From the NCBI GenBank assembly GCA_903970405.1, contig CAJCIT010000152.1:1-64000 (forward strand): DNA of 64,000 bases, in the 5' to 3' direction. The stretch comes from Acidobacteriaceae bacterium. Lineage in GTDB: Bacteria > Acidobacteriota > Terriglobia > Bryobacterales > Bryobacteraceae. Below the pieces are notes generated by a model, which had not been told where the DNA came from, searched no databases, and saw only the letters and a list, made by a program, of their open reading frames with translations. Below are positions 28,891-32,361 of the stretch, one piece after another. The stretch's first letter is position 1, and each line of letters opens with the position of its first letter. The translations under genes were made by a program, and so were the position numbers.

Positions 28891-31800
28891 GTGTTGTCAA
28901 GGCTTTTTTTGAGTGTGTCCGTTCGGGCGATGGCTCTCATTGGGCCAACGCTGCTCCTGACGTTTCCGGCGTTTCCCCAGCAAGCGACGACAAGCGCTCA
29001 CGCTCAGGAGACTGTCAAAAAGAGCACGGAGGCTGCGGCGGCGAAGACTCCGAAGGCCGCAACGGCGGGCCCCAATCTCACCATCGATGCCGGGTCTGGG
29101 CAGCACACCATCAGCCCTTATATCTACGGCATTAATTACAACCAGAATCTGTTGCCGTACATTCTGCCTACCGTTGTCCGATGGGGCGGCGATGCGACGT
29201 CACAATACAACCCGACGGGGCTGTTCGCCAATTCAGGTTCAGACTATTACTTCGCGAACGGCGTCCAAACCCCCTCGTTTGAGCAGTTCTTCGAAACCAA
29301 CAAAGCCGCCGGCGCCCTCACCATCGGCACAATTCCCGTCAACGGTTATGTGGCCAAGGACGGCACTTCGTGCGGCTTCAGCGTCAAGAAGTACGGACCG
29401 CAGCGCTGCACAGATCCTGGCAACTCGGATTGTGGAGATGGCATAGTAGCGGTGGCGCAAGCCGGCGCAAGCGCCCAAACCTACAGCTGCGTGGGCGGCG
29501 GCACGGCATCGATTCCCGCGGGACAAGCGTGGGTTCCCATCACACAGGTGAAGACCACCGACCCCACCGATGCCGATGTAGCGTCCACGCCCAGCACCAT
29601 GCAGAGTTGGGTGAGTTCCGTTGTGTCGAAGTATGGTGATGCAGCCTCGGGCGGCGTCGCCATCTGGCAGATGGATAACGAGCCGGTGTGGTGGGAATCG
29701 GTGCATCAGAATATTCACCCCACCGCGCAAGATTACGACGAAACCTGGCAAAAAGGCATGAGCTACGCGCAGGCGGTGAAGGCGGCCGATCCCACGGCCA
29801 GCGTCGCCGGTCCCATTACGTCGGTCTGGTATGACCTGTTCTTCTCGAGGAAGGATCTAAACTCCGGTTGGGCAACCGGCCCGGATTACGTGTATTGGGG
29901 CAACCCCATCGACCGGCAGGCGCACGGCAACGAGGATTTCGTGGCCTGGTATCTCCAGCAGTTCGCCAACTACGAACAGCAGAACGGGCAGCGGCTGCTG
30001 GATTACTTTGACGTACACGGGTACATGCCGGGAACGGGCAGCGACGCTACCGACCCAGCTTCGGTGGCGGCCCGCATGGCGTCCACGCGGGTCTTCTGGG
30101 ATCCGAATTACGTGGTGGCGAACAGCTCCGGAGTTCTGTTTGCAAGTGGCGGCCCCACTGGTTCCGCCACCACAGGGAATTGGGTGTCAAATGGCACCAC
30201 CTTTGCGCTTGTCGACTCCACCTCCGGCCTGGTGCTGGCCACCACCACCGTTGCGCTGAGCAACGGCAGTCCGGCCATCGTTCCCAGTTCGATTTCCTTC
30301 AGCAGCGGCGCAAGCATTACCTCCAGCCCCAGTACGATTCAGGTTGGCTCCGGCGTTTCCACAGGCCAAACCACGCTCACCTGGAGCGCTCCCAGCTCAA
30401 CGGGCGTCCAGATCTATATTGGCAGCGGCAATTACCTGGATAACCAGTGCATCTGTCTCATTCCGCGCATGAAGAATTGGGTCAATGCGAATTATCCGGG
30501 CACGAAGCTGACCATCTCCGAGTACATTTTGGGAGCGGAGACCACCTCGGAGCCGAGCGGCGCCATCGCAGAGGCGGACCTGCTGGGAATCTTCGGCCGT
30601 GAGGGCTTGGACGTGGCCACGATGTGGCCGGAACGTTACCCGAACCTGTTGCCAACCGATCCGGTGACCTACGCCTTCCGGCTCTACCGCAATTACGACG
30701 GAGCCGGCGGGCAGTTCGGCGCCAATGGCGTCTCGGCCGTCAGCGGCGATCAGACTCAATTATCCAGCTACGCCGCGTTGCGCTCCGATGGGGCGCTCAC
30801 GGTGATGATCGTGAACAAAACGCCGAACAATTTGAGCAGCAACGTATCGCTCGCCAACTTTGTCCCTGCCTCTACCGCGAAAGTTTATCAATATAGTGGC
30901 GCGAATCTAACAGCCATCCAGACTTTGGCGGATCAGGCGGTGACGGCCAGCGGCTTCTCGGCGACTTTCCCGGCTTACTCGGCCACGCTGGTGGTGATGC
31001 AGGCGCCTGGCCCGGCGACAATCAGCGCCAGCCCGAATCCCATTCAGGTACCGCTCGGAATCACGGTGGGCCAAACAACTCTCACCTGGGATGCGCCCTC
31101 ATCCACCACCGTTGACGTCTATGTGGGTGGAGTCGGCGGTACGCTCTTCACCAGCGGAGGCCCCACCGGATCGGCCCAGACGGGCGACTGGGTTTCGAAT
31201 GGCGATGTGTTCACGCTAGTGGATGGAACCACCCATCAGGCGATAGCCACCACCACCGTGTCGGTGGTCCAAACCGCGCCAACAGCGACATTCACGGCGA
31301 GTCCCAATCCGATTCCCGTTCCTCCAGGCGCCACCACCGGGCAGACCACCTTGACCTGGAATGCGCCGGATTCAACCACCGTCGATATTTATGTGGGCGG
31401 CACGAACGGTTCGCTGTTCGCAAGCGGGGGCCCCACCGGATCGGCCCAGACCGGCGGCTGGGTTTCAAATGGCATGGTGTTCACGCTGGTGGATGGAACC
31501 AGCCACCAAGTTCTGGCCACCGCCACCGTTTCCCTGGTCACTGTTACGCCGACGGCCTCGTTCACAGCGAGTCCCAATCCGATTTCCGTGCCGCCAGGGA
31601 TTACCACGGGGCAAACCACACTCAGTTGGAATGCGCCGGCATCGACGACGGTCAACGTGTATGTGGGCAGCCAGAGCGGTCCGCTGTTCACCAGCGGCGG
31701 GCCTAAGGGATCGGCCACCACCGGCGACTGGGTTTCGAATGGCATGGTGTTCGTACTGGTTGACGGAACCACTCAGGAGTTGTTGGCCACGGCCACGGTT

Positions 31801-32361
31801 TCGCTGGTAACCGTCACGCCGACGGCGTCGTTCTCTGCGAGTCCGAATCCGATTCTGGTGGCGCCGGGCGCGACGCTCGGGCAGACCACGTTGACTTGGA
31901 ATGCGCCGGGATCGACCGCCGTGGAAATCCATCTTGGCAGCGCCACCGGGACGCTTTTTGCCAGTTTGGGACCAACCGGATCGGCGCAGACCGGCGGCTG
32001 GGTTTCGAATGGCATGGTGTTCGTACTGGTTGACGGAACCACTCACCAGGCGCTGGCGACAACCGCCGTTTCGGTGATCCAGGCCACACAGGTGACTCTG
32101 CTCGCCGATCCGAACCCCATTCCGCTGGCGGCGGGCGCGGCCAGCGGCCAGACCACGTTAGTCTGGAATGCGCCCGGATCGAGCCTGGTGGAGATTCATG
32201 TGGGCAGCGCCACCGGACCTTTGTTTACGACACAGGGCCCCAGCGGGACGGCCGTCACCGGCGACTGGGTTTCAAACGGGATGCAGTTCGTGCTGCTGGA
32301 CGCCAATACTCGGGTGACGCTGGCTACGACTACCGTCTACACCACATCGGCAGGAACGTGA
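28891..32361 (+). CDS. Secreted GH44 endoglucanase-like enzyme with tandem beta-sandwich repeats
   Basis: A GTG start with GGGGGGAG upstream and a signal peptide. The 1156-residue protein has a GH44 catalytic domain at about residues 65-560: VVRWGGDATSQYN, IWQMDNEPVWW (acid/base Glu264), YFDVHGYMPG, LIPRMKNWVNANYPGTKL and TISEYILG (nucleophile Glu544). The two Glu residues are 280 apart, against 173 in the characterised Clostridium Cel44A (Glu186/Glu359), because a foreign module sits at about 409-515. After the GH44 beta-sandwich, five tandem modules of about 90 residues run to the C-terminus. It should cleave beta-1,4-glucans or xyloglucan outside the cell. Confidence 0.88.
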   Translation: MLSRLFLSVSVRAMALIGPTLLLTFPAFPQQATTSAHAQETVKKSTEAAAAKTPKAATAGPNLTIDAGSGQHTISPYIYGINYNQNLLPYILPTVVRWGGDATSQYNPTGLFANSGSDYYFANGVQTPSFEQFFETNKAAGALTIGTIPVNGYVAKDGTSCGFSVKKYGPQRCTDPGNSDCGDGIVAVAQAGASAQTYSCVGGGTASIPAGQAWVPITQVKTTDPTDADVASTPSTMQSWVSSVVSKYGDAASGGVAIWQMDNEPVWWESVHQNIHPTAQDYDETWQKGMSYAQAVKAADPTASVAGPITSVWYDLFFSRKDLNSGWATGPDYVYWGNPIDRQAHGNEDFVAWYLQQFANYEQQNGQRLLDYFDVHGYMPGTGSDATDPASVAARMASTRVFWDPNYVVANSSGVLFASGGPTGSATTGNWVSNGTTFALVDSTSGLVLATTTVALSNGSPAIVPSSISFSSGASITSSPSTIQVGSGVSTGQTTLTWSAPSSTGVQIYIGSGNYLDNQCICLIPRMKNWVNANYPGTKLTISEYILGAETTSEPSGAIAEADLLGIFGREGLDVATMWPERYPNLLPTDPVTYAFRLYRNYDGAGGQFGANGVSAVSGDQTQLSSYAALRSDGALTVMIVNKTPNNLSSNVSLANFVPASTAKVYQYSGANLTAIQTLADQAVTASGFSATFPAYSATLVVMQAPGPATISASPNPIQVPLGITVGQTTLTWDAPSSTTVDVYVGGVGGTLFTSGGPTGSAQTGDWVSNGDVFTLVDGTTHQAIATTTVSVVQTAPTATFTASPNPIPVPPGATTGQTTLTWNAPDSTTVDIYVGGTNGSLFASGGPTGSAQTGGWVSNGMVFTLVDGTSHQVLATATVSLVTVTPTASFTASPNPISVPPGITTGQTTLSWNAPASTTVNVYVGSQSGPLFTSGGPKGSATTGDWVSNGMVFVLVDGTTQELLATATVSLVTVTPTASFSASPNPILVAPGATLGQTTLTWNAPGSTAVEIHLGSATGTLFASLGPTGSAQTGGWVSNGMVFVLVDGTTHQALATTAVSVIQATQVTLLADPNPIPLAAGAASGQTTLVWNAPGSSLVEIHVGSATGPLFTTQGPSGTAVTGDWVSNGMQFVLLDANTRVTLATTTVYTTSAGT
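30124..30438 (+). repeat. Out-of-phase module copy inserted in the GH44 catalytic domain
   Basis: Translated, this stretch begins in the second half of the C-terminal module (VLFASGGPTGSATTGNWVSN) and, after a linker, ends with a first half (GVSTGQTTLTWSAPSSTGVQ). The halves are thus in reverse order, as if one repeat period had been inserted with shifted boundaries between WDPNYV and LIPRMKNW of the enzyme. Confidence 0.75.
31021..32346 (+). repeat. Five tandem ~270-base repeats coding beta-sandwich modules
   Basis: Repeat units begin near 31021, 31294, 31564, 31834 and 32101. Each codes SPNPI (or DPNPI), then GQTTLTWNAP, then LFxSxGPxGSAxTGxWVSNG. Units 2-4 are most alike at the DNA level, which points to recent duplication. 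Confidence 0.9.

Follow-up and report, generated by a model that had tools for sequence, protein, structure and literature searches.

A permuted copy of a C-terminal Ig-like module probably forms an inserted domain in the catalytic barrel of a GH44 enzyme

Results

The GH44 enzyme and its C-terminal modules

A GH44 catalytic domain probably carries in its beta6-alpha6 loop, at the active-site face of the barrel, a folded Ig-like domain that is circularly permuted and is likely to have been copied, as a one-repeat-long stretch out of phase with the module boundaries, from the C-terminal array of its own gene. The gene was found in a contig of an Acidobacteriaceae bacterium; the window, i.e. the whole stretch of DNA that was analysed, comprises 64,000 nucleotides. 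Judging from its sequence, this gene encodes a secreted enzyme of the GH44 cellulase family with five C-terminal modules (Table 1). The PF12891 match of the gene product scored 197.9 bits compared to a cut-off of 25.1, which places it within GH44, and the glutamates of its NEP and EY motifs, E264 and E544, aligned with Glu in 30 of 30 homologues. The ten best Foldseek matches of the modelled barrel were all GH44 enzymes, and superposition of the barrel part on solved GH44 structures gave a VIA Z of 18.9 and an rmsd of 3.5 over 283 residues, both results having been obtained with a low-confidence model. The catalytic domain is the same as that of the GH44 endoglucanases/xyloglucanases CelM2 (3ii1/3fw6), Cel44A (2e0p/2eex) and Paenibacillus polymyxa Cel44C (2yih), with which it shares both catalytic Glu residues and the C-terminal beta domain; however, these known enzymes have no domain at the site of the insert described below.

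Table 1. Coordinates in the window of the GH44 gene and the features of its product
Feature	Position	Strand	Remarks
GH44 gene	28891..32361	+	1156 aa, GTG start; PF12891 E 2.8e-58
N-terminal hydrophobic stretch of the gene product			resembles a signal peptide (by eye)
GH44 catalytic domain, first part	29074..30117	+	residues 62-409; holds beta6 LLDYFDVHGY and WDPNYV
Catalytic Glu E264 (MDNEP)	29680..29682	+	invariant in alignment; role by homology
Insert, circularly permuted Ig-like module	30118..30429	+	residues ~410-513; net +101 residues vs closest homologue
Second half of module in insert	30124..30258	+	profile positions 42-86; strands C', E, F, G
New linker, native C-terminus to native N-terminus	30259..30309	+	SNGSPAIVPSSISFSSG
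First half of module in insert	30310..30426	+	profile positions 3-41; strands A, B, C
GH44 catalytic domain, second part	30430..31005	+	residues 514-705; helix LIPRMKNW, beta7 with E544, C-terminal beta domain
Catalytic Glu E544 (TISEY)	30520..30522	+	from alignment; role by homology
Five tandem ~90-aa Ig-like modules, native order	31003..32358	+	starts near 31003, 31273, 31543, 31813, 32080

Two further features of the catalytic domain were observed. A second long loop (29428-29574, residues ~180-228) has 49 residues compared to 20-38 in 30 homologues. In addition, the catalytic E544 lies in the sequence EYILGA (30520-30540), while relatives mostly have EYN followed by an aromatic residue; this replacement may alter substrate binding. 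The same genome contains a second GH44 gene (L041:2088-4757) of 890 aa with weak Wzt_C-like and CARDB-like C-terminal domains.

No Pfam family was found for the ~90-residue module, and we consider the module family a candidate for a Pfam entry. Two other proteins of this genome, a trypsin-like protease and one with NHL repeats (L042:2555-5635 and L043:5479-9780), carry the same Ig-like module, and so does a relative's Ferritin_2 protein (L090:601-1800). The module profile also matched designed 'Cake' repeat proteins in the PDB; these matches were rejected as artefacts of summed short repeats.

Extent and order of the insert

Matches of the gene product to solved GH44 enzymes were interrupted between residues 408 and 518. 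The first-pass annotation had placed within the catalytic domain, at 30124-30438, a copy of the gene's own module with its second half preceding its first, and had reported a catalytic Glu pair 280 residues apart. Our measurements bear this out, with the pair identified as E264/E544 and the edges of the insert redrawn as listed in Table 1. The spacing of the pair was 175-202 residues in the 30 aligned homologues and 172 in the solved GH44 enzyme CelM2, the latter value having been read off the alignment; for Clostridium Cel44A, in which we take the pair to be E186/E359, it would be 173. As the spacing is 179 in the closest homologue, in which the loop at this site reads FWDPNYIFTHDDYLASEPVNLIGRMK, the net insertion amounts to 101 residues.

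A profile built from the five modules of the array matched the insert at positions 42-86 and then at positions 3-41, which together make up one complete module without gap or duplication. The total score was 97.3 bits (57.5 and 45.9 for the two pieces), whereas none of 20,000 letter shuffles scored above 12.9. Smith-Waterman comparison of the insert with the array yielded a score of 269, compared to 58 ± 9 and a maximum of 95 for 1,000 shuffles. The split of the profile shows the permuted boundaries that had been proposed earlier. Between the two pieces lies a linker that exceeds the junctions of the tandem array by 11 residues.

The apparent permutation might have been an artefact of the register in which a tandem array is read. 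This explanation was rejected: single-copy modules, which many relatives carry, always matched the profile with the first half followed by the second half, and the model of the native module (see below) is a whole Ig-like domain. Since isolated modules elsewhere have the native order, the permutation of the insert is genuine, and no permuted order was found among the ~50 other copies of the module. A short stretch of DNA is common to host and module at the 5' edge of the insert (TACGTGG in the host, TATGTGGG in the module), which is suggestive only, because silent sites are near saturation.

Occurrence among relatives

Searches of 257 genomes from the same order, 399 from the class and 396 from the phylum gave no GH44 match that ran through the insert; these sets overlap partly, and those of the class and phylum were drawn samples. 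The loop could be measured where both of its flanks were placeable, i.e. in 72 GH44 genes from 65 genomes across the phylum. None of the 72 had an insert at this site, their loops being 11-31 residues long compared to 115 here. The insert was also absent from the second GH44 gene of the same genome, and none of the seven matched GH44 sequences in the PDB had a domain at this site. A search of plasmids did not find the insert, although one Paenibacillus GH44 matched in two pieces; the genome_contigs search returned one relative, without the insert, and viral contigs yielded two distant GH44s but no modules. The same insert in unrelated genera, which would have contradicted the first-pass annotation, was thus sought and not found. 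The insert is known from one draft genome, the sole representative of its genus among the genomes compared.

In the course of these comparisons, an 814-aa GH44 frame was observed in NZ_CAJCHS010000094.1, a record titled Nevskia soli. This frame is apparently the same as that of another genome in our set (G083), as the match coordinates were identical. The title probably reflects a mis-assigned metagenome-assembled genome, G083 belonging to the window's own family.

Divergence and origin of the insert

The DNA of the insert was 57-65% identical to the gene's own modules, while modules 1-4 were 63-80% identical to one another. Comparison of the insert with the array copies gave pS values of 0.62-0.73 and pN values of 0.26-0.33, a contrast that reflects selection on the array as well as on the insert. 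Insert and array copies had 38 invariant positions in common, including the core motifs W, LF, WVSNG, LVD and TTL.W. With pS near saturation and pN lower, the substitutions indicate that the insert is old and constrained as a protein, and that it is no mis-assembled repeat.

These values also bear on the integrity of the contig. The genome is a draft of 319 contigs, and a misassembly or binning error could in principle have joined two genes at the insert. We regard this as most improbable. A single open frame runs through both sides of the insert, its G+C content matches that of the gene, and its two pieces sum to exactly one module; moreover, no module of the gene exceeds 65% DNA identity with the insert, so that there is no near-identical repeat to cause a mis-join. 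Collapse of near-identical repeats during assembly was rejected on the same ground, the DNA of the insert being 35-40% diverged from all of the gene's other copies.

For the phylogenetic analysis the halves of the insert were restored to native order. In the resulting tree of 52 modules the insert grouped with the gene's own modules 1-4, as their sister, with support of 92/90, although the tree has few columns and leaves many forks open. This placement supports the intragenic origin that had been proposed, and derivation from the gene's own array is likely, but short of certain because of these properties of the tree. Alternatively, out-of-phase recombination could have brought the insert from the module array of another gene. 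The module family is indeed found in other secreted proteins of this genome and family, and the insert differs from modules 1-4 by more than these differ from each other; however, the position of the insert beside modules 1-4 argues against another source, which we therefore consider unlikely, while giving it some weight.

Predicted fold of the native module and the insert

AlphaFold2 predicted native module 2 as an Ig-like sandwich with a mean pLDDT of 94.3. Its strands were TFTAS, TLTWN, VDIYV, LFASG, TGSAQ, VFTLVD and VLATAT, i.e. a seven-stranded sandwich of the Ig/FnIII type over the whole length of the module. The structural neighbours were Ig, FnIII and bacterial Ig-like domains with VIA Z values of 7-9 over ~80 residues; as these values are middling, they assign the module to a broad fold class only.

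A different identity, that of a CBM6-like carbohydrate-binding module beside the active site, was suggested by a weak and partial match of a 25-module profile to the CBM6-bearing chains 1o8p/1nae (E 7e-4, positions 17-59). When the five modules were compared with Pfam CBM_6, none matched above the cut-off and one gave an E value of 0.038. Both matches lie below any cut-off and are confined to a short motif, whereas the native model is Ig/FnIII-like throughout. A CBM6-like module is thus very unlikely. The structural matches listed for the native module did not include the CBM6 jelly-roll, an absence that by itself is compatible with either fold.

The model of the GH44 domain with its insert was based on 8 sequences, the alignment rows for the insert being second-half/first-half stretches of the array, and had a mean pLDDT of 54. 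The insert was among the best-predicted parts of this model, with means of 59-89 for blocks of 10 residues and 44 for the linker; the low values at model residues 399-409 correspond to residues 460-470 of the protein, i.e. the linker. In the permuted insert the predicted strands SITSS, TLTWS, VQIYIG, FA, TGSAT, TFALVD and VLATTT match the native ones. All native strands recur, strand C' only in part (LFASG in the native module, FA in the insert). We infer that the insert takes the same sandwich fold in three dimensions. The suggestion that the permuted domain still folds is thus supported, short of proof, by the recurrence of the native strands in permuted order.

It could be argued that the permuted piece is real and old but does not form a proper domain, being a tolerated, partly disordered extension of the loop with no role. 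The poorly predicted linker and the presence of the insert in one genome only are consistent with such an extension. However, the insert has retained the invariant core motifs that it shares with the array, it differs from the array copies mainly at synonymous sites, it contains no frameshift or stop, and its strands are predicted at the native places. A disordered extension therefore appears quite unlikely, and a folded, permuted domain is the reading that we retain.

Discussion

In (beta/alpha)8 enzymes the active-site face is built from the loops that follow the barrel strands. In our model the insert is located between beta6 (LLDYFDVHGY) and the helix LIPRMKNW, ahead of beta7, which bears E544; the strands were numbered by reference to where the catalytic residues lie in GH44. 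As the insert follows a barrel strand, the domain should adjoin the substrate groove. Our guess is that it most likely affects catalysis as a wall, a lid or an extra substrate contact, or that it does nothing.

The ends of an Ig-like module are at opposite poles of the sandwich. Such a module is therefore suited to a chain and unsuited to a loop. A published survey found that inserted domains have close termini, with a median distance of 14.3 A compared to 29.8 A, and noted TIM barrels as preferred hosts of inserted domains (PMC13114784). Since inserted domains need close termini, an Ig-like module in its native order would not be expected to work as an insert. We propose that a stretch of the gene's own array, one repeat long, was cut in the middle of a module, from the end of strand C to the next end of strand C, and that a copy of it entered the GH44 barrel in the loop behind beta6. 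As the cut was out of phase, the piece would be the module in circularly permuted form. Its new ends, at the C-C' hairpin, would be neighbours, while its old ends, at opposite poles, would be bridged by the linker that grew by 11 residues. The piece would then fold as the same sandwich and stand as an inserted domain on the active-site side, with the catalytic residues intact. A cut at the hairpin together with the bridge would explain at once why the module is permuted, where it was cut and why its linker is longer.

Domain insertion and circular permutation are both known kinds of rearrangement, and the variant found here is new; a search of the open-licence literature gave no earlier case of a permuted insert with unpermuted parent modules in the same chain. 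The closest parallel is Met-AP2 (1boa), in which a winged-helix domain is both inserted and circularly permuted (PMC4000134). There, too, a permuted domain lies inside a catalytic domain, where it is tied to substrate recognition. However, the folds differ, and the arrangement is a fixed feature of the Met-AP2 family, whereas here the unpermuted parents are in the same chain. Type I and type II C2 domains are a case of natural circular permutation in an Ig-related sandwich (PMC12051499), in which the strand order is permuted and the sandwich remains the same; only a terminal strand moves in that case, whereas the cut here is at the C-C' loop in mid-module and the domain lies within another. 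Circular permutants of another beta-sandwich fold have been engineered (PMC6288478). The insertions into TIM barrels resemble the present one in the barrel host and the size of the insert (~100 residues), but the survey handled insertion and permutation as separate phenomena, which are here combined (PMC13114784).

The insert may show how a module built to be linked end to end becomes a domain that plugs into a loop. More generally, we suggest tentatively that arrays naturally yield insertable domains, out-of-phase capture producing a loop-fitting permutant in a single step, and that this gene preserves an example in which the copy has a role at the active site; taken as a whole, this proposal is possible but doubtful. 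If it is true, cutting one repeat's length from an array out of phase suffices to give a circular permutant, with new ends that may lie side by side, and out-of-phase capture would turn an Ig-like module that cannot be inserted into one that fits a loop. The permuted insert could also inform the design of enzymes that carry inserted domains. As the permuted copy and its unpermuted parents occur in one protein, the route from array through out-of-phase capture to insertion becomes testable.
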